Positions 6,209 to 23,488 of a stretch of 64,000 nucleotides of DNA are shown piece after piece. The stretch is from the NCBI GenBank assembly GCA_028285525.1, contig JANQOZ010000109.1, forward strand, positions 1-64,000, written 5' to 3'. The stretch comes from Lysobacterales bacterium (lineage in GTDB: Bacteria; Pseudomonadota; Gammaproteobacteria; Xanthomonadales; SZUA-38). A program made the position numbers and the translations under genes. Below the pieces are notes generated by a model that had not been told where the DNA came from, ran no database searches, and was given only the letters and a program-made list of their open reading frames with translations. Position 1 is the stretch's first letter, and each line of letters begins with the position of its first letter.

Positions 6209-8067
6209 GAGGTAGTTATCCTTCCGCGCCGCCGGCGTCGCGATGCTCGGGCTGCCGCCGCTCGCTGACCTGCATCCTCCTGTTGGGCCTGCTGCGTCTC
6301 ACCAATGAACGCCGCCATCTGGCGGATTGTGGGATACTCAAATACGCGAGTCACCGATACCTCCCGGCCCGCGAGCTTCGTAAGGTGCTGAGCGAGTTCT
6401 AGCGTCTGAAGGGATGTGCCACCAGCGTCAAAAAAGTTCCGATCTGGGTCCCCAAGCTCGCCGGCAGGCAGAAAGCGTGCCCAGACGCTGGCCACCAATT
6501 TCTGAGCCTCATCGCCAAACGCAGGCCCGCTATTCGTCTCGTTAATTTCGGATTCGTAGGGGTTTGGCAACCGATGCTCGTCCAGTTTGCCCGTCGGCCC
6601 CAGCGGAAAGCTGTCCATATGAATGAACTGAGCAGGCACGATAGGCTCAGGAAGTCGCTCCGCGAGAAAGCTCCTAAGGCCTTTTTGGGGGACTTCGGCA
6701 AGATAGTAGGCGACGAGCTGCTTTTCGCGCTGCCGATCAGGCTTGATTCGGACACGGGCATCCGAGACATCGGGATGCGCCAGCAGGTGACTCTCCAGGT
6801 CTCCCGGCTCCACGCGATGCCCCCGAACCTTTAATTGACCGTCATTGCGGCCCTCGAAGAAAAAACAGCCGTGCGCATCTCGCCTGGCGAGATCCCCGGT
6901 GCGGTAGTAAAGCCGGCCATCCATCTCGACAAATCGTTCGGCCGTCTCTTCGGGCCGATTCCAGTAACCACCCGCAACACCCGACCCGCTGGTAAACAGC
7001 TCGCCGATTTCACCATCCAAGACGTCGTTCCCGTCTCGCAGCAGCCTTACTCCTGTTTTCGGCAATGCCTGCCCGATAGCCATCGGCCCGGCGGGGTCGA
7101 GGTCCCGGGGCACCACATAAGCAGTAGTAAATACGGTGTTTTCAGTCGGTCCGTAACCGTTAATGATTCTGATACCGGCGTTTTGTGCATATACGTTGAG
7201 GCAATGCTGGACGGCGAGTGCCTCTCCGCCGACGAAGAGCCGTTCCAGACCTGCAAAGCACTCGGGCGCCAGCGCGGCAAACTGATGAAATAGCGATGTC
7301 GTCAGGAATACCGTCTCTACACCATGAGTTTTGATGATCCGGCCGAGTTCGGCGGGTTGCGGTATGTTTTCGGGCGGATACAGGACGCAGGTTCCACCGC
7401 ACGCGAGGGCGCCGAACAGCTCGAATAATGAAGCATCGAAGGTCGGTGCTGAAATCTGAAGAGTTTTGGTGGAACCGTCGAAATCGCCGTAGTGTGATGG
7501 ATCAAATAGCCGGCTGATTCCGGCGTGGGTTATCCGGACCCCTTTCGGCCTGCCAGTGCTGCCCGAGGTAAACATCAGGCATGCGGTCGAATCGTCTGCC
7601 AAGCCGTGGGCAGGAAGAAAACCCTGATTATCGATAGTTGATTCCAAGGCCTCGGATAGCCTCACCAGCTTCAGATCCTGTGCAGGCAGGTCCAAGCCCT
7701 CGTCAACGAGGCAAACAGCATCCTTACAATCATCGAGCATGACTCGAATCTTCGCCTCGGGATAGCGAGGGTCAATCGGCAGGTACGCTGCGCCGGTCGC
7801 GAGCACCCCCAGCCACCCGGCAACCGCCCTTGACGACCGATGTGCGAGAACCGGAACGACATTCCCGCCGGAAACCCCAAGATTTTGAAGCGCGGAACCG
7901 ACGGTGCTTGCATCGCGGGCAAGTTCCGCGTACGACAGTTGCAGGCCCGACGAGACGTCCACCAACGCGATCCGATCTCCCTGTCGGGCGACAAGGTCGG
8001 AAAAGCGTCTCCAGAGATGGTTTGCGCCGGACTCCCCTGCAGCCACTGGCATTTCCTTGGACTTCAC
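6205..8067 (-). CDS. NRPS loading protein, adenylation and peptidyl carrier domains (A-PCP)
   Basis: A 620-residue stand-alone A-PCP didomain with no condensation domain, so it probably starts this assembly line. The adenylation domain (about 15-500) shows core motifs FTSGSTGRPKG (166-176), YGPTEN (305-310), YRTGD (388-392), KVRGHRVEPGDLE (413-425) and the catalytic K494 in GPTGKLD. The carrier domain ends the protein, with the pantetheine serine S552 in DAGGTSL. Aligning by eye to GrsA gives pocket residues D-A-F-L-F-G-G-V-F-K. The aspartate at the amino-binding position implies an alpha-amino acid, and the rest suggests a hydrophobic one; I cannot name it. The start is GTG at 8067; an ATG at 8052 is the alternative. 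It is first in an operon with the KS-AT-ACP-AMT gene (4-base overlap). The upstream 277-base gap is shared with a divergent hydrolase gene. Confidence 0.93.
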   Translation of the reverse strand: MKSKEMPVAAGESGANHLWRRFSDLVARQGDRIALVDVSSGLQLSYAELARDASTVGSALQNLGVSGGNVVPVLAHRSSRAVAGWLGVLATGAAYLPIDPRYPEAKIRVMLDDCKDAVCLVDEGLDLPAQDLKLVRLSEALESTIDNQGFLPAHGLADDSTACLMFTSGSTGRPKGVRITHAGISRLFDPSHYGDFDGSTKTLQISAPTFDASLFELFGALACGGTCVLYPPENIPQPAELGRIIKTHGVETVFLTTSLFHQFAALAPECFAGLERLFVGGEALAVQHCLNVYAQNAGIRIINGYGPTENTVFTTAYVVPRDLDPAGPMAIGQALPKTGVRLLRDGNDVLDGEIGELFTSGSGVAGGYWNRPEETAERFVEMDGRLYYRTGDLARRDAHGCFFFEGRNDGQLKVRGHRVEPGDLESHLLAHPDVSDARVRIKPDRQREKQLVAYYLAEVPQKGLRSFLAERLPEPIVPAQFIHMDSFPLGPTGKLDEHRLPNPYESEINETNSGPAFGDEAQKLVASVWARFLPAGELGDPDRNFFDAGGTSLQTLELAQHLTKLAGREVSVTRVFEYPTIRQMAAFIGETQQAQQEDAGQRAAAARASRRRRRGRITTS

Positions 8068-8344: not shown

Positions 8345-9034
8345 ATGGACCACGCATTCTTTGGCCAACGCCAACAGTTGTTCGGCACATTTCATCCAGC
8401 CTCTGGCCAAACCCGAGATCGAGCCGTGCTGATTGTCGCACCACCCTTCGGCGACAATCTGCGGAGTCATTGGACCCTGAACAAGACGGCAAGCAAATTG
8501 GCGGAAGCAGGCATCGACGTACTTCGGGTCGACTTGTCGGCGTGCGGGAACGCGCCTGGCGACCTGGGTGAAGTCACCTGTAAGACGTGGATTGCGGACT
8601 GTCAGGAAGCGCTCCAAGAGCTAAGCGACCTGTCTGGATCCACCAGAGTAATCACCTTTGGGGTGCGTTTTTCTGCCGCTTTGATGCTTGCCGCACTGGA
8701 TGGGGCCGGTAGCCGTGCCGAAACCATTGCCTGGGACCCAGTTTGGGACGGAAAGCAGTACTTGGAAGAGCTTCGAGCTATCAAATTTGGACCACAATCG
8801 GAGGGCGTACTGGCGGGTCACGCTGTTTCGGCAGACTTGATATCAAGCTTTGCCGACTTCGCAATTGAACCCGGTGATGACGAGAATACGCTTGTCATTG
8901 CGACAACCGAGTCTTTTCCGGGCACAAACGTCTCGCAGGTTAACCTCGACTGTGAGTGGGCCTTGGCAGATTTAAAGATGATTTACGGTCACGACATCGT
9001 GAGCACCACCGTAGAGTGGTGCGGACGCCCATGA
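8345..9034 (+). CDS. Alpha/beta-hydrolase-fold protein lacking the nucleophile serine (exosortase-associated hydrolase 2-like)
   Basis: A 229-residue protein with an alpha/beta-hydrolase fold: strand-rich N-terminus, PFGDN near the oxyanion position (34-38) and a DVLRVDLS segment (58-65). The nucleophile elbow, normally GxSxG, reads GVRFS (106-110), with arginine where serine should be, and no clear catalytic histidine is seen. It resembles the protein at 11457-10675, which carries GLRLG at the same place. Both look like the 'hydrolase 2' family found beside exosortase A loci (from memory). It overlaps the next gene by four bases (ATGA), so the two products are probably made together. A non-catalytic partner or carrier-protein-binding role is inferred. 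The ATG has only a weak ribosome-binding site. Confidence 0.75.
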   Translation: MDHAFFGQRQQLFGTFHPASGQTRDRAVLIVAPPFGDNLRSHWTLNKTASKLAEAGIDVLRVDLSACGNAPGDLGEVTCKTWIADCQEALQELSDLSGSTRVITFGVRFSAALMLAALDGAGSRAETIAWDPVWDGKQYLEELRAIKFGPQSEGVLAGHAVSADLISSFADFAIEPGDDENTLVIATTESFPGTNVSQVNLDCEWALADLKMIYGHDIVSTTVEWCGRP

Positions 9035-9831
9035 AACCGGAAATTCATCGTTTTGGTAAACAAAGGGAATTACTGGGTTTTTCTCAAATTCCAGACAAAC
9101 ACAACGGTACAGCGCTGATTTTTCTCAATTCCGGGCTGCTTCCATCGATGGGCCCCTTTCGGCTATTCCTCGAGTATGCGGATGAGATGGCCGAGAAAGG
9201 ATTTGTCACCGTGCGCTTCGATCAGTCCGGGAAAGGCGACAGCTACCGAAGAGACATGGATCGACCTGAGGCGAATTCACTGGATTTTCAGGCCGTTAAA
9301 GAGTTGTTGGATTCTGCGAGAGTTGAACGTTTCGTACTGATCGGGCTGTGTTCGGGCGCCGACGACGCAAGCCAGATCGCCGAGCAATTCTCCTGCATCG
9401 ATGCTGTTGTATTGCTTGATGGCTTTGCTAAAAAAACGAGGGCATACCAATTGCGGTACTACCTGCCACGGATTCTCAAGGTTGCGCCGATGGTCCGGGG
9501 CGTAATTCGGAAATTCAGGTCTTCCGGATCCGGTGACGGGATGCTAACGCCGGTGTCGTTACGCAATTGGGAGAGCGACGACCAGATGATCGAGCGATAC
9601 CAAAAACTGCTGAACCGAGGAGTTAGGATACTCGCGATCTTCACCGGGGGCATAGAACGTTACTACAATCACCAGGGCCAGCTGACAAATGCTGTGGGGG
9701 CATCACCAAACCTGACTGAAATCTATCAGCGAGACGCGGAACACATTTACCCGGAACCCTCGCAACGGCGTTGGCTGAAGTCAACGATTACCGAGTGGTT
9801 GGACCAGCACTTAAGGATTACTGAGGTTTGA
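9031..9831 (+). CDS. Alpha/beta hydrolase with a cysteine nucleophile elbow (exosortase-associated hydrolase 1-like)
   Basis: A 266-residue protein; the ATG at 9031 overlaps the stop of the preceding hydrolase-fold gene. Family features are LNSG at 32-35, the VRFDQSGKGDS segment (61-71), a nucleophile elbow GLCSGA (105-110) placing C107 at the catalytic position, and H238 in the late DAEHIY motif as the likely catalytic histidine. A GxCxG elbow is known in dienelactone-hydrolase-like enzymes, so thioester or ester cleavage is plausible. It is paralogous to the protein at 10682-9837 and lies tail to tail with it, five bases apart. Context inside an NRPS/PKS cluster without a thioesterase suggests release or proofreading of carrier-bound intermediates (inference). 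Confidence 0.8.
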   Translation: MKPEIHRFGKQRELLGFSQIPDKHNGTALIFLNSGLLPSMGPFRLFLEYADEMAEKGFVTVRFDQSGKGDSYRRDMDRPEANSLDFQAVKELLDSARVERFVLIGLCSGADDASQIAEQFSCIDAVVLLDGFAKKTRAYQLRYYLPRILKVAPMVRGVIRKFRSSGSGDGMLTPVSLRNWESDDQMIERYQKLLNRGVRILAIFTGGIERYYNHQGQLTNAVGASPNLTEIYQRDAEHIYPEPSQRRWLKSTITEWLDQHLRITEV

Positions 9832-9836
9832 AGCGC

Positions 9837-10682
9837 CTACCGGGTTTTCCTATCCACAATGCGGACCCAAGCCACAATGTCCTCCGGAATCTGCTTCTGG
9901 TGACTGAGGCCGGTCAAAATATGCGTCGCGTCGAAATGGTAATCGACCCTCAATCGGCCAGCAAAATTCACGTCCGAAAAACTACTTTCGAACTGCCCGG
10001 GATAATTCAACGTCTGCATTTGACCGCCGGTAAAGATCGCAAAAATCTGCGTACCGGCCTCGACAATTTTTGAAAGTCCCTCAGCCACCTGCTCTCGCGG
10101 AGGTTTTACTCGAATATAGCTGGGCATTTCCACGAATTCGTCGTCTGGCTGGTCCCCTCTACTGGCCGGTTTATTAAGACGAAACAATCGCTTGGCAAAA
10201 CGCATCCATACATTGGGATTTAAAAGTCTCGGACCATAGTGGTGGAAATACCATCTTGGCGTGCGATAGCAGAACGGATCGATCTGGATGATACCAATGA
10301 CCCTAGAGTCGACCTTCGCCACCTCATAGGATCCGTCCGCGCCGGAACACAGGCCATAGAGCACGAAGCGATTGATGCCACGCTTGCGCTCAAGGTAGTT
10401 CATCACCTCAGCGGTTTCCTCGATGGCGGTTTCCTCGAAGGGCTTGCTGCCACGGCGGGTCTCGCTGTCCCCGATACCCGAAAAATCGAACCGCACCGAC
10501 AGATAGCCGGCTTGGGCCAAGGTTCGCGCGATATGGACCGACATGCGGCAGGTGCCCACATGGTGCATCACGCCGGAGTTCAGGATGACCACCGCGGGGG
10601 CGCTGGCGTCCACGCTGTCCGGCTGGGAAACAATGGCCGTCAGGGGCGTGGGTTTACCGATTCTGACCGCTCTCTCACGCAC
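9837..10682 (-). CDS. Alpha/beta hydrolase with a cysteine nucleophile elbow (exosortase-associated hydrolase 1-like), second copy
   Basis: A 281-residue protein from a GTG at 10682, which overlaps the end of the upstream gene by 8 bases and has GGAGAGG about 12 bases before it. An upstream in-frame TTG at 10715 is the alternative start. Motifs are LNSG (34-37), SVRFDFSGIGDS (62-73), elbow GLCSGA (110-115) with C112 as putative nucleophile, and H254 in FDATHIL. The architecture matches the plus-strand paralog at 9031-9831. It is the last gene of the operon that starts with the glycine/monooxygenase NRPS and the KR-DH PKS. The likely role is hydrolysis of a thioester or ester in that pathway; the exact substrate is unknown. 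Confidence 0.8.
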   Translation of the reverse strand: MRERAVRIGKPTPLTAIVSQPDSVDASAPAVVILNSGVMHHVGTCRMSVHIARTLAQAGYLSVRFDFSGIGDSETRRGSKPFEETAIEETAEVMNYLERKRGINRFVLYGLCSGADGSYEVAKVDSRVIGIIQIDPFCYRTPRWYFHHYGPRLLNPNVWMRFAKRLFRLNKPASRGDQPDDEFVEMPSYIRVKPPREQVAEGLSKIVEAGTQIFAIFTGGQMQTLNYPGQFESSFSDVNFAGRLRVDYHFDATHILTGLSHQKQIPEDIVAWVRIVDRKTR

Positions 10683-11457
10683 GGGAGTTTTCGTCCTCTC
10701 CAAACCAGCCCACAATCGCCTGGATGATGGGCTGCGGCAGCAGGATACCGCCGAAGTCGTCCACGTAATTCCAGTCTCCGGGCGCTGGCGTCAGGCTGAA
10801 TTCATAGTTGGGCAACTGCTGCCACGCCGATCTGAGCTTCTGCCCTTCAGGATAGTCGCTCGAGACGACGTGGAAAACCCGTTTCGCCCGCGGCTCCATC
10901 GTCAGCAGATCGGCGCCAGCCAGCCCATCGCGCAGCGCCTTGGATAGTCCGAAGCCGTTGAAATAGAGCGTACCGTCGTCGTCGATGAAGTTATTGTGCG
11001 CCTCGTCCCCGAGGTGCATGACCTCCTGAAGTTCCGCTTCGTAAGCCGCGCCAGAGTTGACCGGATCCCACAGCACGAGGCGGTCGAGTTCGAGCTGGGT
11101 ACTGGCCACCGCACCGAGCAGTCCACCCAGACGCAGCCCGATCAGGTGAAGGTGGGTGATTCCGGCGGTTTCGCGAAGCTCCTCGGCCGCGGCCGAGATG
11201 TCGGTGAGCCATTGCTCTAGGTCCGCGTCGGCCAGCACGCCACTCGAGTTGCCCGTGCCGCTGTAGTCAAAGCGCAGCACGTGGTACCCCTGTTTGGCCA
11301 GCAGCATGGCCAGCTGCCGGTTGGCCCGGTGGGCTCGCATGTATTCCTGGCCAAAGGGGTAACATACGAGCACACCTTCACTGCGCGGGCGTCCCCCCGG
11401 GGGGTGGTAGACCCCGAACAGCGGTTCCGCTGAAGGGCCGAAAAACAGCGGCGTCAC
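10675..11457 (-). CDS. Alpha/beta-hydrolase-fold protein lacking the nucleophile serine (exosortase-associated hydrolase 2-like), second copy
   Basis: A 260-residue protein. The GTG at 11457 overlaps the TGA of the PKS gene (GTGA), so it is translationally coupled to it. It has an alpha/beta-hydrolase fold with CYPFGQEY (32-39), HVLRFDYSGTGNS (59-71) and an elbow reading GLRLGG (107-112), where R109 replaces the nucleophile. No convincing catalytic histidine appears near the C-terminus, where the usual position reads GDWNYVDD. It matches the 'hydrolase 2' family of exosortase A loci (from memory) and the plus-strand paralog at 8345-9034. It is probably not a classical hydrolase; a structural or binding partner of the adjacent cysteine hydrolase is the favoured inference. 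Confidence 0.75.
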   Translation of the reverse strand: MTPLFFGPSAEPLFGVYHPPGGRPRSEGVLVCYPFGQEYMRAHRANRQLAMLLAKQGYHVLRFDYSGTGNSSGVLADADLEQWLTDISAAAEELRETAGITHLHLIGLRLGGLLGAVASTQLELDRLVLWDPVNSGAAYEAELQEVMHLGDEAHNNFIDDDGTLYFNGFGLSKALRDGLAGADLLTMEPRAKRVFHVVSSDYPEGQKLRSAWQQLPNYEFSLTPAPGDWNYVDDFGGILLPQPIIQAIVGWFGEDENSRA

Positions 11458-14400
11458 GAGCGTTTACCGAACAGCGACTTGACCAGCCCGCGGCGCTGCG
11501 CTGGTTTTTCGGCTTCAGGCTCCGCCGAAGCGTCGGGTTCCGTGGCCGCTGGTGGCGCCGCGGCCGTCTCGTCCACCTCGTCGATTCCGCGCTGGGAATC
11601 GACCTCGGCAGCTACCTGCTCCAGGGTCTGCAGCGCCATAATCGCCTGGTTGAGCTGCACACCAAATTTCTTGTTGGTCTTGGTGATGGCGCGGATCGAC
11701 AGCAGCGAGTGGCCACCCAGGTCGAAGAAATTTTCATCGACGCCGATCCGGTCCACGTCCAGCACCTCCTGCCAGATGGCGACAATCGCCTTCTGCGTTG
11801 GCGTTTCCGGGGCCTCGAAGGTGTCGACGGGCGCAAACGGGTCAGTCAGCAGCTTGCGCTTCGGCTGACCACTGCTGTCCAGCGGGATCTCGTCGATTTC
11901 GATAAGGTGCTGCGGCAGCAGCTCCGGCGCCAGCTCAGCCTTCAGGTGCCGCCGAAGATCGCTGACGGTGACATATTCATCCGGGTCCACCACAAAATGT
12001 GCGACCAGGCGGCGTTCGTCCTCTTCGTCCAGGTGCGAACGAACAACGGCGAGTTCGATCGCCTCGTGGTCGAGCATCGCCGCTTCGATGACCGGAATAT
12101 CGGGGTCGATGTCAGCGTCGTGGCCGGAGTCGGCCACCACCGTGGCGCGGGCACCGCCGCCCCCGCTCTGCGTAAGCTGCTGCACCATGAGATCGATTTC
12201 AAAGGCCGCAACAGCAACCTGGGGCAGCCCCACCCGGCGCAGCGCCATGTCGAACGCCGTGGCGCCCTCCTTGGGCGAAATACCCAGCTCCAGCGTCCGC
12301 TTCAGTGCCGGGTCCAGCTCATCGTCGGCCGGCGGCGCGCTGAGCGCGGCGGCCAACCGCTGCATGGTGAAGTTTTGCACCATCAGCAGCGGCGTACCCG
12401 CTTCGTCGGTCACCACGATGTCGAAGGTGACACTGTCTCCCGCGCGGCCTTCGCTGGCTTCCTGTTCGCGGTAGGTCACGTGACTGTACCAGCGTCCGGC
12501 GGTGGCCCCGAAGTAGGTCAAGTTCTGGTAACCGACCGGCACATACAGCTCGTCCATCGGCTGATAGCCGGGAATCAGCGCCTGCGCGCCCGCGGTCGCC
12601 ATGTCCAGCATCGCCGGATGCAGCCGGTAGTGCTCCAGATCGGATTCGTGGGACCCGAGGTCAATCTCCTCCAGCGCTTCACCCTGCCCCAGGTGAATCG
12701 CCTTCAGGCTGGCCCAGCGAGGCCCAAAATTCAGATGCGGATGGTGGTCCGCCTCGTCGAACCGCTGGACCCGCTCCGTGCAGCGCGCCAGCAGCTCGCT
12801 GCGCGGCTCCGCGCTGATCGACTTCGGCGCAGCCGGAGTGATGTCGCCGCGGCAGTGTTCGGTCCACTCACGGCCGGCTTCACTACTGATGAGAAATTCA
12901 CCCTCAGCCAGGTCCACCACCACCTTCAGTGCGCGGCGGTCACCATCGGGAACAAAAAACGGCGCCATGAAAAACACGTTGGCCATGGCCACCGTGGACT
13001 GCCCGGTCGCCTCGGCAAAAGCCGCCCGCGCCAGCTCGATGTAGCCCGCGCCGGGGATCAGTGCGTCGTTGCTGGCGGCGAGCCGGTGCTCGTCCAGCAC
13101 CCAGTCCGTGTCGGGACTGAAGATCTTGATGAACTCGCAGCGTTCCTCGGTTCGGGTCACGCAGGTTCCCAGCATGGGGTGAGTAACGGCCTCACCCAGC
13201 GCCGCCAGCTCGATTGCGCTGCCGTCGGCGATGGACGCCGCCATACCCACCTGGCGCCACGCCGGCCAGTTGATCGCCGTGTAGGCGGTGCCGTTGGTGC
13301 CGTCGCGGTGCGCACAGTAGCTGTCGAGATAGGCGTTGGCGGCCGCGTAGTCGATCTGGCCCGGCAGGCCGGCAAAGGCGCTGATGGACGAAAACGCCAC
13401 AAAAAACCTGAGCTGCTCACCGGCAAACGCCTGGTCGAGCAACCGGGTGCCCTGCACCTTGGGGGCCAGGACGCGACGGGCGTCGGCCGGCTCCTTGAGC
13501 TGGATCAGCGCGTCGTCGATCACGCCCGCGGTGTGGACAACGCCGCAGACCGGACCGAACTGTTCCCCGATCCTCGCGCGCAGTGACGTCACCTGGTCAG
13601 GGCGGCTGATATCGGCCGCAAGGTGAGTGACCGTCGCCTTTTTGCTGATCGACAGGAGCGTCTTGAATCGCTTAGCCAGCGCGCCGGGGCCCTCAGCCAG
13701 CGTCTCCCACTCATCAGTGGGCGGCAGCTCGCGCCGGGAAACGAGCACGAGGTTGAGCTTCGCCTGCTCTGCGAGTTTTTCCGCCACCACCAGCGCCAGG
13801 CCGCCGATGCCGCCGGTGATCACCACGGTGTCGTTGTCCCTGAGTTTCACCAGGGGCGCACCCTGCGGCGGCAGCGCCGCGTCGAAGCCGCTGACGAAAC
13901 GCTGGCCGTTGCGCAGCGCAATCACGGCGTCACCCGTTTCCTCATCCGGGTCGCCGGCTGCGCGAACGAGAATTTCCCGTTCCAGCGAGGCAAGCCAGTT
14001 GCCGGCGGAACCGCTGCCGGCCTCCAGGTCCACCAGGCGTGCCTCCACCGACCGCAGCTCCCGGTTGGCGACGCCGACCGGACCGAGCGCCAGGGCCTGG
14101 CCAGGGTCGGCTACCGTTTCGGCGCCCACCGCAAACAGGCCGCGGGTCACGACGGTGATCGTCATGCCCTCCTCGGGATCTTCGTCCGCCACTGCCTTGA
14201 CCAGGGCAAACAGCGGCTGGAACACCGACTCGACGGGGTCCGCGGTGCTGTCGCCTTCGACAAACACCACCACGTCCGTCGGCAGCTCGTTGCTCTGCGC
14301 CGCCCCGGCGAGCAGGTCCGCCCACGCCTCCGCCTGGTCCAGCGGCAGGCTGAAGCCGTGGTCGGCTGGCGCCAGCTCCGCTCCCCGGGTGGCGCGGATA

Positions 14401-17267
14401 ACCGCTGCCCGGCCTTCAATCCGGCTGGCCAGCGCGCGCGCTTCCTGGCCGTCGCCAACCACCATGATCCGCTGCTGCGTGCGTTCAGGCGCCGTGTCGG
14501 GCAACCTGCCGGCGCGACGCCAGACGGGCTGGTAAAACCAGTGGGCGATGTCTTCCTCGCGCTTCAGACCCGCCACGTTGCCTTCCGAGAACACCTCGTC
14601 CCCGGGCTCGACCCAGTAGCGCGCGTGGTCGAAGCTGTAGGTCGGCAGCGCCAGCCGCTGCCGCCGCTCGCCGTCCCAGTAAGGCCTGAAGTCGCTGACC
14701 CCGCCGGCCTGCCACAGCGCGCCGAACATCCGCAGCATGAATGCCTGATCGGACTCGCCGTCATCCGGATGTCGCATGGAATGGACAATGCCACCCCCGA
14801 CGGTGTTCGCCGGGTTAATCTGGCACAGACTCGACAGCGTCTTGCCGGGCCCAACCTCCAGCAGGGTGAGATTCGGTTTGGCCAGCAGCGCCTCGGCGCA
14901 GTCGGCGAATCGAACCGTATGCCGAAGATGCTGCACCCAGTAGTCCGGGTCGGTCGCCTGCTCGTCGGTCATCCAGGAACCAGTGAGATTGGCCGTCAGC
15001 GGAATTTTCGGTGCGCTGAGCTCCATGGAACGCAGGTAGTCGCCGAAGGCCTCGAGGATCGGCTCCAGCATGCTGCTGTGCGCGGCGATGTTGATGCGCA
15101 CCCGCTGAAACTCGATTTCCTGCTGGTTCAGCGTGTTTTCGAGGGCGGCCAGGGACTCGCTCGGGCCGGAGACCACGGACAGTTCCGGTGCGTTGACGCA
15201 GGCGAGCGACAACGCGTTGTCCATCAGCTCGCGCAGACGCTCCTCGCCGGCCTGCACGCTGAGCATGCCGCCTTCCGGCACGGTCTCGAAGAGCTGACCG
15301 CGCAGCGCCACGAGCCCCACCGCGTCGCGCAGGCTGATCACGCCGGCGATACAAGCGGCGGTGTTTTCGCCCATGGAATGGCCGGTCAGACAGACCGGCT
15401 CCACACCCCAGGACATCCAGAGCTTCGCCTGGGCGTACTGGGCGGTAAACAGCGATGTCAGTGACCGGGTGGGGCGCTCGAGCTCAGCGCGCGCCGACTC
15501 TAGCTGATCCGGCGCCGGGTACATGAGCGACTTCAGGTCAAAGTCGATGAAATCCTTCAGATGGTTCAGGCACTCGTCCACCGCCGCGCGGTACACGGGT
15601 TCGGTGTCATAAAGGTCTTTGCCCATGCCCGGATACTGGGCGCCGCCGCCGGCAAACATGAAGGCGACCTCGGCAGCCTGCTCCGGCGCCGCCGCCGTCA
15701 GCACCCGGTCAGCCGGCTGCTGGGTCAGCAGTTCGATCGCCTCGGCGTGGTCCGCGGCGGCCAGGACGCGGCGCTGGCCAAAGCTTCGTCGTCCGGTCTG
15801 CAGCGTATAGGCCAAGTCCGCGAGCGGCACGTCCGGGTGGGTTTCGAGGTACTGCGCGAGCTTCTTGCTGTTCCGATTGAGCGCCTTCTCCGTGCGCCCG
15901 GACACCGTCAGGAGCACCCGCTCGCTGCGGTGCGGCGCGCTGGCCCGAGCCGGCGGCGCCTCCTCGAAGATCAGGTGCGCGTTGGTGCCACCGACACCCA
16001 GGGAGCTGACCCCGGCACGCCGGGGACCGTCATCGCGGTGCCAGGGTTTGACCTGGGCGTTGACGTAGAACGGGCTGGATTCCCAGTCGATCGCCGGATT
16101 GGGCGCCGTGAAGTTGATGTTCGGCGGCAGTTCCCGGTGCCGCAGGGCCTGGATCACCTTGATCGCGCTGGCAACGCCCGCGGCGGTGTCCAGGTGCCCG
16201 ATGTTCGCCTTCACCGAGCCAACGCCGCAGAACTGTTTCTTGTCGGTCTCGCGCTGATAGGCGCTCGTCAGCGCGGCGATTTCGATCGGGTCGCCAATCG
16301 GGGTACCGGTCCCGTGACACTCGACGTAGTCGATGCTGTCGGGATTGATGTCAGCCACCATCAGCGCCTCGTGGATTGCCGCCGCCTGGCCGTCGACGCT
16401 CGGCGCCATGTAGCTGACCTTGCCCGCCCCGTCGTTGTTGACGGCCGAGGACTTCAGCACGGCGAGGATGTTGTCGCCGTCAGCCAGCGCGTCCTCCATG
16501 CGCCGGAGCACGAGCACTCCCGCTCCGCTGCCAAACAGCGTCCCCTGGGAGTTGGCGTCGAACGGCCGGCAGTGGCCGTCGGGAGACAGGATTTCACCCT
16601 CCTGATACGTGTAGCCGCGGTGATGCGGCATCTCGATCGTGACGCCGCCCGCCAGGGCCATGTCACACTCGTGGCTGAGCAGACTCTGTGCAGCCAGGTG
16701 CATGGCCACCAGCGAAGTCGAGCAGGCGGTCTGCACATTGACGCTAGGGCCGGTCAGGTTGAAACAGTAGGACACGCGGGTGGTCAGGAAGTCCTTGTCG
16801 TTGCCGGTGTGGCGGACCAGGAACAGGCCGTGGCGGTTCATGTACTGCGGGTTGGTGAACAGGTTGTACGGCATGTACGCGTTGTGACCGGAGCCACCAA
16901 AAACGCCGACCGCGCCGTCAAACTGCGCCGGGTCGTGTCCGGCGTTCTCCAGCGCCTCCCAGGCCACCTCAAGGAACTGCCGGTGCTGCGGATCCATCAT
17001 GGACGCTTCCAGCGCGCCGAAGCCAAAAAACCCGGGATCGAACTGATCCATCTTGTCCAGGATCGCGGCAACTTTGACGTAGCGCGGGTCATCAAGGACG
17101 CTGTCGGGCACACCCTGGTGACGCAGCTGCTCGTCGGTCAGCGGCGTAACGCTCTCGACGCCGTCCCGCACGTTGCTCCAGAATGCGCCGGCATCCAGCG
17201 CGCCGGGCAGCCGGCAGGCCATCCCGACGACCGCGATATCGTTTGAAATGTCCAGGTTTGTACTCAC
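11454..17267 (-). CDS. Type I polyketide synthase (KS-AT-KR-DH-A-domain remnant-ACP)
   Basis: A 1937-residue protein with a GTG start at 17267. The ketosynthase has C182 in TACSTSL, H318 in ECHGT and H358 in ANIGHL. The acyltransferase has S631 in GHSMGE, but the specificity motif reads IAAHSSM (727-733), neither HAFH nor YASH, so the extender is uncertain. The ketoreductase has TGGIGGLA (1151-1158) and the FSSIS / YAAAN catalytic pair (Y1307). The dehydratase-like domain has H1394 in DEHRLA, 11 residues before the IPGAGY proline rather than the usual 9, and D1555 in LHPAMLD. Residues about 1725-1810 match the C-terminal subdomain of NRPS adenylation domains without the rest of one. The carrier serine is S1854 in LGGHSL. 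The expected product is one extension reduced to a double bond. No thioesterase is present. The gene lies between the Gly-module NRPS and two hydrolases in one operon. Confidence 0.93.
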   Translation of the reverse strand: MSTNLDISNDIAVVGMACRLPGALDAGAFWSNVRDGVESVTPLTDEQLRHQGVPDSVLDDPRYVKVAAILDKMDQFDPGFFGFGALEASMMDPQHRQFLEVAWEALENAGHDPAQFDGAVGVFGGSGHNAYMPYNLFTNPQYMNRHGLFLVRHTGNDKDFLTTRVSYCFNLTGPSVNVQTACSTSLVAMHLAAQSLLSHECDMALAGGVTIEMPHHRGYTYQEGEILSPDGHCRPFDANSQGTLFGSGAGVLVLRRMEDALADGDNILAVLKSSAVNNDGAGKVSYMAPSVDGQAAAIHEALMVADINPDSIDYVECHGTGTPIGDPIEIAALTSAYQRETDKKQFCGVGSVKANIGHLDTAAGVASAIKVIQALRHRELPPNINFTAPNPAIDWESSPFYVNAQVKPWHRDDGPRRAGVSSLGVGGTNAHLIFEEAPPARASAPHRSERVLLTVSGRTEKALNRNSKKLAQYLETHPDVPLADLAYTLQTGRRSFGQRRVLAAADHAEAIELLTQQPADRVLTAAAPEQAAEVAFMFAGGGAQYPGMGKDLYDTEPVYRAAVDECLNHLKDFIDFDLKSLMYPAPDQLESARAELERPTRSLTSLFTAQYAQAKLWMSWGVEPVCLTGHSMGENTAACIAGVISLRDAVGLVALRGQLFETVPEGGMLSVQAGEERLRELMDNALSLACVNAPELSVVSGPSESLAALENTLNQQEIEFQRVRINIAAHSSMLEPILEAFGDYLRSMELSAPKIPLTANLTGSWMTDEQATDPDYWVQHLRHTVRFADCAEALLAKPNLTLLEVGPGKTLSSLCQINPANTVGGGIVHSMRHPDDGESDQAFMLRMFGALWQAGGVSDFRPYWDGERRQRLALPTYSFDHARYWVEPGDEVFSEGNVAGLKREEDIAHWFYQPVWRRAGRLPDTAPERTQQRIMVVGDGQEARALASRIEGRAAVIRATRGAELAPADHGFSLPLDQAEAWADLLAGAAQSNELPTDVVVFVEGDSTADPVESVFQPLFALVKAVADEDPEEGMTITVVTRGLFAVGAETVADPGQALALGPVGVANRELRSVEARLVDLEAGSGSAGNWLASLEREILVRAAGDPDEETGDAVIALRNGQRFVSGFDAALPPQGAPLVKLRDNDTVVITGGIGGLALVVAEKLAEQAKLNLVLVSRRELPPTDEWETLAEGPGALAKRFKTLLSISKKATVTHLAADISRPDQVTSLRARIGEQFGPVCGVVHTAGVIDDALIQLKEPADARRVLAPKVQGTRLLDQAFAGEQLRFFVAFSSISAFAGLPGQIDYAAANAYLDSYCAHRDGTNGTAYTAINWPAWRQVGMAASIADGSAIELAALGEAVTHPMLGTCVTRTEERCEFIKIFSPDTDWVLDEHRLAASNDALIPGAGYIELARAAFAEATGQSTVAMANVFFMAPFFVPDGDRRALKVVVDLAEGEFLISSEAGREWTEHCRGDITPAAPKSISAEPRSELLARCTERVQRFDEADHHPHLNFGPRWASLKAIHLGQGEALEEIDLGSHESDLEHYRLHPAMLDMATAGAQALIPGYQPMDELYVPVGYQNLTYFGATAGRWYSHVTYREQEASEGRAGDSVTFDIVVTDEAGTPLLMVQNFTMQRLAAALSAPPADDELDPALKRTLELGISPKEGATAFDMALRRVGLPQVAVAAFEIDLMVQQLTQSGGGGARATVVADSGHDADIDPDIPVIEAAMLDHEAIELAVVRSHLDEEDERRLVAHFVVDPDEYVTVSDLRRHLKAELAPELLPQHLIEIDEIPLDSSGQPKRKLLTDPFAPVDTFEAPETPTQKAIVAIWQEVLDVDRIGVDENFFDLGGHSLLSIRAITKTNKKFGVQLNQAIMALQTLEQVAAEVDSQRGIDEVDETAAAPPAATEPDASAEPEAEKPAQRRGLVKSLFGKRS

Positions 17268-17341: not shown

Positions 17342-20300
17342 TTAGCGCCCGCGCCGTTGCCTTCCCCTCGAAGCACGTCTAGCCTGAGCTCGCGCTTCGC
17401 TTCGATCCAGTCCGGTTTGAATCGCCTCATGGCCACCGTCATCGAGGTAGTCTGCCAGGGCTTTGACCGTAGGAAACCGAAACAAATCGGTAACTGACAA
17501 ATGGCGGTCAAAGTTCGAAGACAAGATACCTTGCATCTTCACTGCCAGAATCGAATGTCCACCCAGATCGAAGAAATTGTCAGTCACGCTGATATGGCCC
17601 AGTCCCAGAACCTGTTTCCAGATGTCCAGGATCTTCTTCTCCGACTCGTTGGAGGCGTCCTGAAAAGCGCGGTCCTTGCGTGGGCCCGTGGATGCGTCTA
17701 CGTTCGGCAACGCCTTGCGGTCTATTTTCCCGTTTGGTGTCAAGGGAATCGCGTCGATCGCCAGGAAATGATTCGGCACCATAAAATCCGGCAGGCTCTT
17801 CCGAATGAATTCGCGAAGTGACGTGTTTGCCAGGGCGAGCGCTGGATCGGCGAGCACATAATAGGCCACCAGTTGCTTGGTACCCGCGCTGTCGTCTCGA
17901 GCCACTACCACGGCCGAATCGATTTCCGGATGCGCACGTAAAGAGACTTCGATCTCGCCAAGCTCAACGCGGTGGCCGCGGATCTTGATCTGGTGGTCTA
18001 CCCTTTCAAGGAACTCCAGCCGCCCGTCCTCGCCGTATCGCACGACGTCACCAGTGGCATATAGCTTCTTTCCCTCATCGAAGGGATCACTGATAAAACG
18101 CTGCTGGTCGAGTTCCTCGCGATTGTGGTACCCCCTCGTTACGCCCTCGCCGCCGATATACAGTTCGCCCGGCCGACCCTGGGGAACGAGCCTTTGTTCT
18201 TTGTCCAACACAAAGCAGCGGGTGTTGGCGATTGGTCTGCCAATCGTCACGCGATCGAAGTCGGCCGCGATTGGGTCAATCGTCGACCAGATTGTCGTTT
18301 CCGTCGGTCCATACATGTTGACGATGCGTGTTTCTGGCATGATCTGCTGAAGCTCCGTCACCAGATCCGACGGCAGTGCTTCACCCCCGATCAGCAGCTG
18401 CTCAATTGAACCGTAAGTTGCGGAATCTGCACTCAGCAATGGCAGCATACGAGCCATACTCGGCGTGCATTGCATATGCGAAATCTGGTGTCGCACGATG
18501 TCCTCCGCTACCGTCGCCTGGTCGCGCAAAGCGCGCAGTCTCAAGAGCTCTCGCAGGTCGTTGATATACGGTAGATGCTGAAGCACCGCATCGACGTCGA
18601 CACCGAAATCTACCAGGCAGGCGATCTCAGACACACCGACTCCCGTGACGGCATTCACCAGGTCGACGCATTTTTCTGGCGAGCCCAGCAGACTGCTGGT
18701 CTCAAAATAACGTTCAAAGGCAAACTCAAGCAGATTCTCGAATTCGTCCGGACTCAGGTCTTCCAGTGCGGTTTGCGCAACCTCAGTGGAGGACGGGCCC
18801 TTGTTGTATGCCGTCCAGGCATCAGCATATTGACCGACCAAGCTGGCTGAACCTCGGAGGTAATCCTTCATGGGCCCACGGACGATCTGCTTGACCGCTT
18901 CATTTTCCGGGCCAACGAAGGTATGCAGCATCAGCGTGACCCGGCCGGCGTCGGGATCGTGGCCATTTTCCTTTCGCGCCGCCCGGTAAAGCGCAATTTT
19001 CTGGCTTAGATCCTCAATGGTCTGACCTAGCAGATGCGTGAGGACGTTGGCGCCGATCCGTCCAGCTTGCTCATAAGTAGCAGGACTGCCTGCGGCGGTG
19101 ATCCAGACCGGGAGCTCGGGCTGAACAGGTCTGGGCAGGGTCCCGATCTCTACTCGGTCACCCTTGGGGTTTTCAGCCTGGACCTTCTCTCCGCGCCAGA
19201 GGGCACGCAGCTGCTCAAGGTTGTCGTACATCACCTGGTGACGCCGCTCATAGTTCTCGGGGGCGAGCACAAAATCGTTGGGCTGCCATCCGGAGGCGCA
19301 GGCGATACCGACACGGCCGTTGGACAGGTTGTCGACAACAGCCCACTCCTCAGCAACCCGAAAAGGACTGTGCAAGGGCAACACGACACTTCCTGCCCGA
19401 ATTTCGAGGTTTCGCGTGCTGGCTGCAATCGCAGCTCCCATCACCGACGGATTGGGATACAGGCCGCCAAAGGCGTGGAAGTGGCGTTCCGGTGTCCAGA
19501 TTGCTTCAAAGCCGTGATCATCCGCAAATCGCGCGCCCTCCAATACCAATCGGTATGGGTCCTTCTTGGCGTGATCGGGTTCGTTGGCAAAATAAAACAG
19601 GCTGAAGGCAACGGGTTCGGGCGCTAACTCAGCACTTGCCAGTGCGCCGTGCAGGACAACCGTATAGCCGCGTGTCAGAGTCCACAGCAACTCAAGAACG
19701 GATATATCGAAAGAAAGACTCGTCACCGCGAGCCAGGTCTTTCGCTTGTCGTGCCTGACAACATCGTCCATACCAGTGAAAAAATTCACCACGTTCCGGT
19801 GTTCGACCAAGACCCCATTAGGCTGGCCCGTTGAACCTGAGGTGTAGATCAGATAGGCCAGATCGTCAGGACCGCATGCAGACTCGATGGAAGCAGGTCC
19901 TGGACGGGTATCGAACTCGTCGGTGCAAAGGAAACGAACACCGGTTTCACTGAAGCGCGACTTGTAGCTGCGCTCGGTAATCAGCAGTCGTACTCCCGCG
20001 TCTCGCACGCAAAACAGCAGGCGCTCAGCGGGATATTCCGGATCGAGCGGCAAGTAAGCTCCGCCCGCACGCAAAATCGCCAGTACCGCCACCACCATTT
20101 CGGTAGACCTTGAAACGCTCAGTCCGACGATCGAACCTGGGCCCACACCCAAGGCTTGCAGTCTTTCGGCAAGGCGAGCAGATCGCTCATCGAGTTCCCG
20201 ATAGCTCGTTTTCTGGTCGCCTGCGATCAGGGCGGTTTGTTCGCCACGAGAATTTGCCTGCGCTGCAAACTCCTCGTGAATCGTTGTAGCGGGAATTGCC

Positions 20301-21631
20301 GCGCCCGTGTCGTTCCAGGTTTCCACGAGCTGGTGGTATTCCCTGGGACCCAGAATCGAGAGGCTATCGAGGGGAACATCAGGGTTCTCGACGAAGACAC
20401 TCAAACAGTTTTGGACCTGCTCCAGACACCGTTCGGCTGCCGGACGAGACAGCAGGTCGGCGTCAAACGAAAGCTTCAGAAAGAGGGCAGGCTCAGCATA
20501 AGCATAAATCGTGACTGGATAAGGCGTGCGTTCATGCAACCTGAATTTACGGGTGGTCCAGGAACGCCGCCGCTGCATGATCGCTTCGTTAAGGATCTGT
20601 TTGTCGAACATCAGAAGCGTCCGGAACAGGGGCTGACCCGGAGGAATCTCTGTGCTTCGCTGAATATCAGTCAGCGCCGCATGTTCGTGTGGCCGACCAT
20701 CGATCTGCTGCTGCCTCAGGGCGGATGCCAGTTCGCGGGGGGTTTGCCCAGCCAGCCGGGCAACGACGGGTACGGAGTTGATGAAGACCCCAACCATCCG
20801 ATCAGCGTCCGGCACGGTAGCTGCCCGACCAGCCCTGGTGGCGCCAAAAACCACCGTTTCCTCCTCACAGTGGCGACTGAGTACCATTGCCCAGGCGGCC
20901 TGCACGAGGGCATTCAACGTCAGGCCGTTTTCTGTAGCCCACCGAGACAAACCGGCTGTCTGGTCATCTGAGAGCTGAATTTCGACGTCCGCTCGGTTCG
21001 TTCCAGGTGCATCGGCCGATACAAATGGCGTGGCGTGGTCAAAACCCGCAAGCAGCGAGCGCCAGTACTCCAGCGCCTGCGAATCAGCCCAGTCTGCTCG
21101 CCACTGTTGGAACAACTCCGCTGATGGCCGTGGCTCAATTGCGTATGACTCCCCCGAGATCAGCGCGTCATATCGATCGAAGACCTCAACCAGCAGGTCC
21201 GGAAAGCTGCGGCCGTCGCACAGAATGTGGTGAAAAGTCCACAGGAAAACCCATTGCGAGCGACTAATCTCCAGCAGAGTGAACCGGATCGGAGGGCCAG
21301 CGAACAGGTCGAATCCCTGGGCGCGATCCTCCTCCAGGACCCTGGCAAGGTATGCACCGTCAGCCCATTCGGCCTCGCCTACCTGAAGGACCGTCCATGT
21401 CGGCGCAAATTCATCCGCGACGCCCAGCTCAAACTGGCCCTGCTCATCTCGCAACACGTACGATCGAAGCACAGAATTGTGAGCCATGGCGCCGTTCCAG
21501 GCCACGCGAAGGTGCCCCTCCGCCAGGGGCTCATTGAGCTCAACGACAATCTGTTCAACATCAACGCCGGAGCGGCTGTCCACCAGCTGGTGGAACACCA
21601 TGCCCTGTTGAATTGGCGTTAGCTTTGCCAC
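17342..21631 (-). CDS. NRPS module C-A-PCP, glycine-type A domain with internal luciferase-like monooxygenase
   Basis: A 1429-residue protein. GTG at 21631 is preferred because AGGAAG lies 5-6 bases upstream; a TTG at 21664 is the alternative. The condensation domain has HHILCDGRS at 134-142. The adenylation domain starts near 440. A complete flavin-type luciferase-like monooxygenase (about 675-1019, from FSLFYFANE to the LVDFG region) is inserted between its A4 and A5 motifs. The pocket code read by eye is D642, I643, L646, Q1054, L1080, G1082, M1106, I1114, W1115, K1302, i.e. DILQLGMIWK, which matches the known glycine code closely. The A3 loop reads TSGSTGQPNG, with asparagine instead of the usual lysine. 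The carrier serine is S1360 in LGGHSI. The arrangement parallels MtaG/MelG of myxothiazol and melithiazol, where glycine is oxidised to leave a terminal amide. The same role here is an inference. Confidence 0.93.
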   Translation of the reverse strand: MAKLTPIQQGMVFHQLVDSRSGVDVEQIVVELNEPLAEGHLRVAWNGAMAHNSVLRSYVLRDEQGQFELGVADEFAPTWTVLQVGEAEWADGAYLARVLEEDRAQGFDLFAGPPIRFTLLEISRSQWVFLWTFHHILCDGRSFPDLLVEVFDRYDALISGESYAIEPRPSAELFQQWRADWADSQALEYWRSLLAGFDHATPFVSADAPGTNRADVEIQLSDDQTAGLSRWATENGLTLNALVQAAWAMVLSRHCEEETVVFGATRAGRAATVPDADRMVGVFINSVPVVARLAGQTPRELASALRQQQIDGRPHEHAALTDIQRSTEIPPGQPLFRTLLMFDKQILNEAIMQRRRSWTTRKFRLHERTPYPVTIYAYAEPALFLKLSFDADLLSRPAAERCLEQVQNCLSVFVENPDVPLDSLSILGPREYHQLVETWNDTGAAIPATTIHEEFAAQANSRGEQTALIAGDQKTSYRELDERSARLAERLQALGVGPGSIVGLSVSRSTEMVVAVLAILRAGGAYLPLDPEYPAERLLFCVRDAGVRLLITERSYKSRFSETGVRFLCTDEFDTRPGPASIESACGPDDLAYLIYTSGSTGQPNGVLVEHRNVVNFFTGMDDVVRHDKRKTWLAVTSLSFDISVLELLWTLTRGYTVVLHGALASAELAPEPVAFSLFYFANEPDHAKKDPYRLVLEGARFADDHGFEAIWTPERHFHAFGGLYPNPSVMGAAIAASTRNLEIRAGSVVLPLHSPFRVAEEWAVVDNLSNGRVGIACASGWQPNDFVLAPENYERRHQVMYDNLEQLRALWRGEKVQAENPKGDRVEIGTLPRPVQPELPVWITAAGSPATYEQAGRIGANVLTHLLGQTIEDLSQKIALYRAARKENGHDPDAGRVTLMLHTFVGPENEAVKQIVRGPMKDYLRGSASLVGQYADAWTAYNKGPSSTEVAQTALEDLSPDEFENLLEFAFERYFETSSLLGSPEKCVDLVNAVTGVGVSEIACLVDFGVDVDAVLQHLPYINDLRELLRLRALRDQATVAEDIVRHQISHMQCTPSMARMLPLLSADSATYGSIEQLLIGGEALPSDLVTELQQIMPETRIVNMYGPTETTIWSTIDPIAADFDRVTIGRPIANTRCFVLDKEQRLVPQGRPGELYIGGEGVTRGYHNREELDQQRFISDPFDEGKKLYATGDVVRYGEDGRLEFLERVDHQIKIRGHRVELGEIEVSLRAHPEIDSAVVVARDDSAGTKQLVAYYVLADPALALANTSLREFIRKSLPDFMVPNHFLAIDAIPLTPNGKIDRKALPNVDASTGPRKDRAFQDASNESEKKILDIWKQVLGLGHISVTDNFFDLGGHSILAVKMQGILSSNFDRHLSVTDLFRFPTVKALADYLDDGGHEAIQTGLDRSEARAQARRASRGRQRRGR

Positions 21632-22074
21632 TGTAACTTCCTGATTCAAAGTATTTGGCGTCAACTCCGGTTGAAAGAGAACCCTGTTCAGGAGCCTCTA
21701 AAGAATCGGCCGGAGTCGAGAACGGCCATTGGCATCATGCTGAGCCAGACCCCCGCCCAGCAATAAGACCGCGTTGTTGGAAGCCGACCCGCCGCTCTTA
21801 CCCGCTAGAGTTTAATCCACATCCGCGACGCCGCCAGTGGTAATCGATTAAGTCTGAGACAAATCAGAGCAAATTAAGCGAAGTTAACAATCCGCAAAGT
21901 CACGTAGCTCAAGCCAATGCGCAACGTGGTTGGCATCGCGAATGCACCGGAGTTGTGAGTAGCCGTGAATCGACCAACGAAAGCGCGATCCTCTGGTTGC
22001 AGCGGTTTTGTCGCGCCGCGCGGCCGTGTCGGGTCAATAGTCGACGGTGTTCAGCGCTCAAACGGCATTCGTCG
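21632..22074. promoter_or_regulatory. Upstream region of the NRPS/PKS operon, with palindromes
   Basis: These 443 bases separate the first NRPS gene from a glycosyltransferase gene on the same strand, and no gene is visible in them. They hold a perfect 10-base palindrome TAATCGATTA (21841-21850) followed at once by an inverted repeat TCTGA-6-TCAGA (21853-21868). The stretch at 21841-21895 is clearly AT-richer than its surroundings, as expected of a control region. No convincing paired -35/-10 boxes could be assigned. Confidence 0.35.
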
Positions 22075-23262
22075 TTAAATGAGCGACAGCAACTGCTCTG
22101 CGTTATGCCGCCACTGTCGCTCTTCCAAGATGTAGTTACGAGCGTTGGTTCCGACCGTTTTTTGCTCATCTGGATGACCGACAAGCGAGAGCGCCTTTTG
22201 GACGCACCCCTCGCGATCAGACGCCGGAAACAGCCACGAAGTCTCGCCGTCCCGAACGACCTCGCTAATCGGCGGAAAATCAGGAACAACCATCCCTTTG
22301 GCCATTGCCATGAATTCGAAGAGCTTCATAGGAGAGCCATAGATGTTTGAATCGGGAAGAATTCCGTAGTCCATGGCAGCAATGTAAGCTGGCACAAGGT
22401 TATGAGTAACTCGTCCGGACAGGATCACTTGGTCAGCGACACCATGTCGGTCTACCGAATCGCGCAGGCTCTCAAAGCATTTGCCATCCCCGACCAGCAG
22501 CAGCGACAGTTGAGGAAAGTCCTTCAATCGCGGCGCAATCAGGTCGACGAACCAGTCGATACCGTGCCAGTGAACGAATGCACCGACATAGCCGAGTACC
22601 ACCTTATTTGACAAGCCCAACCGCGCTCTCAGGTCTGTATCCTTCACTCGATCGGGAGAAAAGATCGCAACGTCCGCCGCGTTAGGCGACACGACTGAGG
22701 CGGCCATTCGAGGATACGCGCCTGCGGCAAGCTTCTGAAACTGCGCTGAGATGAAAACCAACCCGTTGGCGTTGGAGAAAGCCCAGTCCTCCAGCCGTCG
22801 GGCGATTCCGGCAAAAACCAGAGGCCTTACCCGGCTTACCAGCACCGAATCGTTGATCTCCAGAACTATGGGAATTCCGCGCCGGCGCGCAAGCCAGACT
22901 CCCGCGACCATAAAAAGGCTGTAACGTTCGTAGATCAACTCCGCTTCTTCAGCTCGCACGCGAGCGGACAGACGAAAGATGATCACCAGGTTGTAAGCCA
23001 TTTCAAAGACTTCAAACGCAAAAGGCGGCAGCTTCTTGGTGAACTCAACAAGCCGCCTTAACCCGAGGCCAGACCGCGACGGCCCGGCTTTCATCGCTTG
23101 AGCGGGAGCCTGGGACTCCGGGTCGGCACCGGGCATCGACAAAATGCTGACATGATGTCCGAGTTCCCGAAGGCCTTTGGTCACTCCGCGAATGTGCGCC
23201 CCTTCCGCACCCTTTCCGCGAGTTCGATGATGGAAAACAATCCTCAAGTCGTTGAACTCCAC
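22075..23262 (-). CDS. Glycosyltransferase, GT4 (GT-B fold)
   Basis: A 395-residue protein from a GTG at 23262, which has AGGA about 8 bases upstream; a GTG at 23322 would add 20 residues. N-terminal FHHRTRGKGAEGAHI is a donor-side glycine-rich entry loop. Near the C-terminus come LLLVGDGK and the EFMAMAKGMVVPDFPPISE segment, which is the E-x7-E nucleotide-sugar-binding signature of GT4 retaining transferases. It probably adds one sugar to the EPS repeat unit or a related glycan on the cytoplasmic face. It lies on the minus strand between the NRPS operon and the EPS genes, separated from both by intergenic DNA. The sugar specificity cannot be read from the sequence. Confidence 0.85.
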   Translation of the reverse strand: MEFNDLRIVFHHRTRGKGAEGAHIRGVTKGLRELGHHVSILSMPGADPESQAPAQAMKAGPSRSGLGLRRLVEFTKKLPPFAFEVFEMAYNLVIIFRLSARVRAEEAELIYERYSLFMVAGVWLARRRGIPIVLEINDSVLVSRVRPLVFAGIARRLEDWAFSNANGLVFISAQFQKLAAGAYPRMAASVVSPNAADVAIFSPDRVKDTDLRARLGLSNKVVLGYVGAFVHWHGIDWFVDLIAPRLKDFPQLSLLLVGDGKCFESLRDSVDRHGVADQVILSGRVTHNLVPAYIAAMDYGILPDSNIYGSPMKLFEFMAMAKGMVVPDFPPISEVVRDGETSWLFPASDREGCVQKALSLVGHPDEQKTVGTNARNYILEERQWRHNAEQLLSLI

Positions 23263-23488
23263 CCTATTCCTGGAAGCCAGCCACCGGACACTGTTTGGCC
23301 ATTGTGGACCTTGGTCAACCACACCAGGCAGTAGGCCGGCGTTTCGCGCCGTCGCGGGCGGGCCGACGGCCTAGCCCGAGGCCGCTGTATGATACTCCTT
23401 TTACTACACACTAGAGCGGGAAAACCTGGACGCGGCTCCTGCATGCTGCCCCCCAGAAGCCGCAACAACCCCGGCCTTCAAGCGACTG

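Follow-up and report, generated by a model that had tools for sequence, protein, structure and literature searches.

What does a nonribosomal peptide synthetase (NRPS) module with a monooxygenase inside its adenylation domain make when it lies beside genes for exopolysaccharide synthesis? The question is raised by a 64,000-nucleotide stretch of a Lysobacterales bacterium contig (JANQOZ010000109.1, positions 1 to 64,000; the window), in which an NRPS gene on the minus strand is followed in transcription order by a polyketide synthase (PKS) gene and by genes for two α/β hydrolases, hydr2 and hydr1, with an exopolysaccharide locus occupying 22-60 kb on the upstream side of the NRPS gene (Table 1). 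We favour, with a little better than even confidence, the reading that the NRPS is a non-terminal glycine module of an NRPS-PKS line belonging to the exopolysaccharide locus. What can be read from the sequence is the module organisation with its glycine pocket, the PKS and hydrolase genes next to it, the synteny with its nearest relative and the enrichment of polysaccharide genes around its family.

A glycine-type module with an embedded monooxygenase

The open frame of the NRPS gene encodes 1440 residues counted from a TTG codon. An alternative GTG at 21631 gives 1429 residues and has AGGAAG five bases upstream; because this AGGAAG is better spaced, GTG is by sequence the likelier start. Position 21631, which the initial annotation gave as the end of the gene with the strand unstated, corresponds to this start. 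Pfam and NCBIfam models gave the architecture C-A[LLM]-T: a condensation (C) domain (residues 12-447), an adenylation (A) domain (first part 466-672, second part from 1048, C-terminal subdomain 1237-1313) interrupted by a luciferase-like monooxygenase (LLM; 687-1038), and a thiolation (T) domain (1344-1407). Motifs A4 (FDIS, residue 652) and A5 (YGPTE, residue 1118) flank the insert, in agreement with its previous placement at residues 675-1019 when these are counted from the GTG start. The core motifs are present (HHxxxDG in C, A3, A8, the A10 lysine and the T serine), the models detected no thioesterase (TE) in the protein, and the chain ends 33 residues after T. The pocket code DILQLGMIWK, earlier read by eye, was recovered by aligning about 110 A[LLM] proteins and is of glycine type, with no hint of another substrate; DILQ-x-GM(I/V)WK is nearly fixed across these LLM-bearing A domains.

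The insert matches TIGR04020 (MupA/Atu3671 luciferase-like monooxygenase) over positions 1-341 of 341 with 517.4 bits, and a chance match or frame artefact was ruled out because this is far above the curated cut-off of 244.45. In an AlphaFold model of residues 456-1328 (pLDDT 86, pTM 0.63), the A domain matches 4d4g across the insertion (Z 55.8, 1.6 Å over 462 residues) and for the insert the match is 6ket, the monooxygenase of PuwE (TM 0.91), so that both folds are complete as modelled. Nothing in the sequence of the domain points to a loss of function, since PERHF, GSxVxPL, GW..DF and other residues that do not vary across LLM proteins are retained, and the catalytic depletion that could have undermined the earlier assignment was not seen. 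PuwE, from the puwainaphycin pathway, belongs to the same LLM subfamily (47-49% identity) and has the same fold, but its monooxygenase sits between a PKS-aminotransferase and an NRPS module, whereas that of the window lies within the A domain. The PuwE domain has been assigned to 2-hydroxylation of the carrier-bound chain (PMC4219810).

Relatives of the module and their polysaccharide neighbourhoods

Bacterial genomes scanned with an alignment of LLM sequences yielded at least 581 confirmed stretches. Among the best 80, which were read, the typical relative is an A[LLM]-T protein of 1500-1650 residues encoded beside a PKS of 2100-2200 residues, and Pfam analysis of examples gave formyltransferase-A[LLM]-T and, with ketosynthase (KS), acyltransferase (AT), ketoreductase (KR) and dehydratase (DH) domains, KS-AT-KR-DH-T-TE. 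The family spans Pseudomonadota, Planctomycetota, Gemmatimonadota, Chloroflexota, Cyanobacteriota, Deinococcota and other phyla. The window has the family layout, in which a polysaccharide locus holds an A[LLM]-T gene and, next to it, a single KS-AT-KR-DH-T gene, but its NRPS lacks the N-terminal formyltransferase domain of the majority and has a C domain there, as do a minority of relatives. That minority includes the nearest relative among the matches listed, L036, from a metagenome-assembled genome of Gammaproteobacteria, with about 56% identity over A[LLM] and 62% over LLM. The two share the gene order NRPS-PKS-hydr2-hydr1, and L036 is likewise flanked, on one side, by genes for a group 2 glycosyltransferase (GT2), an O-ligase, a group 4 glycosyltransferase (GT4) and a 55% identical homologue of window 38085-39266 and, on the other, by homologues of WcaJ, Wza (58%), Wzz and the kinase. 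A formyltransferase placed before A-T is also the start of the LgrA initiation module, which lacks an LLM and activates valine; the window protein has its C domain at that position. At locus L030 (15673-17300, the N-terminal 540 residues), residues ~300-530, which follow the formyltransferase domain, resemble by eye a condensation domain reduced to its second half, with a formyltransferase seemingly standing in for the first.

We compared the family with random condensation-domain loci of the same phylum. At least one polysaccharide-type open reading frame (ORF) occurred at 31/52 family loci and at 1/26 random NRPS loci (Fisher p 1.2e-6), and such ORFs made up 61/347 of the non-megasynthase ORFs around the family against 5/210 in the control. 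Random loci were used because a control pulled with the A-T protein of the window was itself biased, 3/8 of its loci being polysaccharide-linked too. All nine annotated plasmid loci (Aminobacter, Aliiroseovarius, two from Ruegeria, Shinella, two from Paracoccus, Parasedimentitalea and Deinococcus) lie in polysaccharide, sugar-transfer or exosortase neighbourhoods, with VPLPA-CTERM and XrtD genes on that of Aliiroseovarius; several have the order PKS, GT2, NRPS and phosphopantetheinyl transferase, and a GT2 gene often stands between PKS and NRPS. Because the gene so often sits among sugar-coat genes, its product may decorate a surface polysaccharide. This context was absent from the initial annotation.

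The protein ends bear on how the chain moves on. The tail of the window protein, LDRSEARAQARRASRGRQRRGR, resembles a basic tail (at least +4) found in 56/65 of the A[LLM] proteins with little sequence beyond the carrier (median +5, last 22 residues), whereas 13 control NRPS ends have a median charge of -5. The A-T protein at 6205-8067, which precedes the other KS of the window, has a similar tail. We infer that the basic tail of the NRPS docks it to the PKS.

Candidate product, its release and competing explanations

Assembled into a course of synthesis, these features would have the A domain load glycine on its own carrier and the C domain, where most relatives have the formyltransferase, acylate it, the donor perhaps being the C-A-T protein of a second operon (see below) or an acyl carrier. 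From its insertion site the flavin monooxygenase would reach the carrier and hydroxylate the glycine α carbon, which we consider moderately likely on the precedents of MtaG and of PuwE-type domains, which yield 2-hydroxy acids. The resulting acyl-hydroxyglycyl chain would then pass, very probably, to the KS of the downstream PKS, perhaps guided by the basic tail, and a single malonyl-type unit would be added there before reduction and dehydration. Release or transfer by a Cys-type hydr1 and its pseudo-enzyme partner hydr2, which would do what a thioesterase does in the relatives, appears probable, and the product would be attached to the polysaccharide or required for it; a polysaccharide-related product of some kind is likely.

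The role proposed for the hydrolases comes from the PKS neighbours. Domain models found no thioesterase in the window PKS, in which a segment like AMP-binding_C (A_C-like) precedes the T domain. The same holds at L036, L066 and L092, where a PKS without TE and with the A_C-like segment is again accompanied by hydr2 and hydr1, while 39 PKS neighbours carry a thioesterase and hydr genes lie near none of them. All hydr1 proteins compared (8/8) have a GLC(S/E)(G/A)AD elbow with Cys and a conserved His, and all hydr2 proteins (8/8) have G-x-R, with Arg replacing the nucleophile. Given Cys against Arg at the nucleophile site and the mutual exclusion of TE and hydr genes, the sequences suggest that an active/inactive pair stands in for the thioesterase. 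Cys-type polyester synthases offer an analogy for acyl transfer by a Cys-type hydr1, and the pair may thus transfer the acyl group to an acceptor other than water. Overlapping hydr1/hydr2 gene pairs were seen at 8345-11457 of the window and at L036, L040, L046, L066 and L092, with two pairs each in the window and L040.

MtaG (myxothiazol) and MelG (melithiazol) also have the monooxygenase inside a glycine-type A domain, a kinship of layout that the initial annotation had pointed out and that the intact insert bears out. From this kinship it had been proposed that the window module is terminal, its hydroxylated glycine leaving the chain as a primary amide, with oxidation in mid-chain as the alternative. 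A monooxygenase domain is described as cleaving glycine to the carboxamide in myxothiazol A (PMC9396620), and the A[LLM] layout and glycine code are common to both types. The window protein differs from MtaG and MelG, however, in having no TE, in being followed by a PKS gene, as had been noted and holds when the genes are read in the direction of transcription (17267 down to 11454), and in lying in a polysaccharide locus. MtaG-like comparators were recognised by layout rather than by name, as myxobacterial C-A[LLM]-T-TE proteins of ~1790 residues encoded after PKS genes (many LLM proteins are present in myxobacterial genomes). In a tree of the A[LLM] region, made by a quick method and weak at its deep forks, they formed a fully supported clade within a 31-row clade (SH-aLRT 96) made up mainly of C-type multimodular lines. 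Outside that larger clade, the window protein paired with L036 (support 89) among mainly formyltransferase-type proteins. In most relatives a formyltransferase domain opens the A[LLM] module, which there starts a chain rather than ending one. On the grounds of clade, basic tail and absent TE we reject the terminal amide as the principal interpretation and regard it as very improbable; with the conserved gene order also favouring onward transfer, the observation made at the outset stands, and of the two interpretations offered the mid-chain one is the better. The reaction itself could be another, such as N-oxidation or oxygen insertion, or could follow extension, since LLM domains of this subfamily have been credited, in different systems, with hydroxylation, epoxidation and Baeyer-Villiger oxidation (PMC8739492). 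We find this doubtful: PuwE, the best solved relative, is assigned to 2-hydroxylation, and the glycyl residue is indicated as substrate because glycine code and insertion site are both fixed.

The usual reading of assembly-line enzymes is that they produce secreted antibiotics or siderophores, and most NRPS-PKS clusters do yield secreted compounds; the line could accordingly make a free small molecule (metallophore or antibiotic), the adjacency to exopolysaccharide genes being incidental or a matter of biofilm co-regulation. The resemblance of the second operon to lines for β-amino acid lipopeptides would fit such a product, as would the 21/52 family loci without a polysaccharide gene within 10 kb for the query set used. 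This last count also weighs against assigning our NRPS to the exopolysaccharide locus, together with several other points. The loci compared are phylogenetically unbalanced, with many Rhodobacterales, and the query genes were drawn from two members, the window and Aminobacter. C-type A[LLM] loci are not enriched, with such a gene in the short flanks of only 3/19, though L036 counts as polysaccharide-linked once its flanks are widened. The hydrolases score far below the cut-offs of the 'exosortase A system-associated' models (TIGR03100/TIGR03101; hydr1 76/168 bits, hydr2 100/203 bits). Finally, by analogy with the MtaG proposal, the N-C bond of a mid-chain α-hydroxyglycine may break spontaneously; such amides can fall apart, and oxidation may therefore be late, or the hydroxyl used in cyclisation. 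Nevertheless, the co-location recurs across phyla and exceeds the control, a glycosyltransferase gene stands between PKS and NRPS in Rhodobacterales, and the annotated examples, unlike the control siderophore loci, list no TonB siderophore receptor, so that a free secreted product seems unlikely to us.

Assignment of the module to an exopolysaccharide-linked line leads to a broader proposal, which we put forward tentatively: small NRPS-PKS lines across phyla would make an amino acid-polyketide substituent of exopolysaccharide from formyl- or acyl-glycine oxidised by the A-domain monooxygenase and extended by one ketide unit, with transfer in some members by a Cys hydrolase and its dead partner. 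The family context rather than the A[LLM] layout, which is already known, is what makes the locus of interest. In the open-access literature searched, no paper brings a luciferase-like monooxygenase together with exopolysaccharide and a polyketide synthase in this way and none names Atu3671; the polysaccharide-linked family appears to be undescribed there. If the proposal is true, many clusters reported as 'orphan natural product' by mining software would serve biofilm matrix synthesis, and polysaccharides would bear amino acid-polyketide groups missed by composition analysis. The wide phylum spread provides many laboratory strains for testing a polysaccharide role.

Neighbouring genes and further observations

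Table 1. Features of the window and the evidence for them (C, condensation; A, adenylation; LLM, luciferase-like monooxygenase; T, thiolation).
Feature	Position	Strand	Remarks
NRPS gene, C-A[LLM]-T	17342..21664	-	domain models and start-site reading
Condensation domain	20324..21631	-	intact HHxxxDG (HHILCDG)
Adenylation domain, first part	19649..20269	-	motifs A1-A4; models, motifs, structure match
Luciferase-like monooxygenase domain	18551..19606	-	between A4 and A5; TIGR04020
Adenylation domain, second part	17726..18523	-	A5-A10; pocket DILQLGMIWK
Thiolation (carrier) domain	17444..17635	-	GGHSI
Basic C-terminal tail	17345..17443	-	LDRSEARAQARRASRGRQRRGR; conserved in family
PKS gene, KS-AT-KR-DH-(A_C-like)-T	11454..17267	-	KS, AT, KR and DH motifs intact
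hydr2, α/β hydrolase	10675..11457	-	Arg at nucleophile position (GLRLG); start overlaps PKS stop
hydr1, α/β hydrolase	9837..10715	-	Cys nucleophile elbow (GLCSG), conserved His; overlaps hydr2
Second hydr1-like gene	8956..9831	+	GLCSG; divergent
Second hydr2-like gene	8345..9034	+	GVRFS; divergent
A-T protein, second operon	6205..8067	-	basic tail like that of the NRPS
KS-AT-T-aminotransferase	1427..6208	-	
Condensation domain of truncated NRPS	3..1430	-	cut at contig end
Group 4 glycosyltransferase	22075..23322	-	just upstream of NRPS
O-ligase-like protein	43349..44650	-	below model cut-off
XrtA-type tyrosine autokinase-like protein	47099..47860	-	below cut-off
XrtA-type polysaccharide chain-length determinant	47857..49392	-	above cut-off
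XrtA-type polysaccharide export protein	49414..50043	-	above cut-off
Polyprenyl glycosylphosphotransferase EpsB_2	50586..51986	-	above cut-off

The exopolysaccharide locus also holds flippase-like and further glycosyltransferase genes. It resembles XrtA/PEP-CTERM polysaccharide loci in that its export, chain-length and transferase genes pass the XrtA models and its hydr1 and hydr2 are distant relatives of hydrolases 1/2 of those loci; it differs in that the hydrolases and several other genes fall below cut-off. No exosortase was found in the window, and the rest of the genome gave a single weak exosortase-like match; a PEP-CTERM search gave no matches anywhere, the controls being likewise blank.

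The second operon (A-T, KS-AT-T-aminotransferase, C-A-T; window 1-8067), whose A-T protein has an A domain code that reads DAFFFGGVFK by eye, is a second polysaccharide-linked NRPS-PKS type. It is colinear with L167:14842-27532 (Loktanella salsilacus) and L169:14875-27460 (Rhizobium sp. SL42), both inside exopolysaccharide loci. Its last protein is cut at the contig end. At its start (1-478), contig C5 of the same genome encodes an A_C-T fragment that runs to a stop codon, probably the end of this condensation protein, giving C-A-T across an inferred junction; genes for SGNH-like and cupin-like proteins (both by eye) and for a TIGR04325 methyltransferase follow. TIGR04325 methyltransferases also occur in NRPS/polysaccharide loci of Loktanella, Rhodobacter and Rhizobium SL42. 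The whole genome has only the two condensation domains of the window cluster and three strong ketosynthase matches, two in the two cluster PKS genes and the third on contig C8, within a frame of 430 residues.

In Rhodobacterales and Rhizobiales, plasmids often carry the A[LLM]/PKS/polysaccharide unit, and one Deinococcus plasmid carries it too (L030, L031, L033, L158-L163). Two A[LLM] loci, L083 and L084, are near-identical though one is entered under Comamonas sp. KCTC 72670 and the other under Myxococcus sp. CA023; close copies occur in other Myxococcus-group genomes, and the Comamonas entry may be a case of mislabelling or contamination. Within the window, GC content rises to 0.673 at 12001-16000, in the PKS gene, compared with 0.57-0.60 around it.

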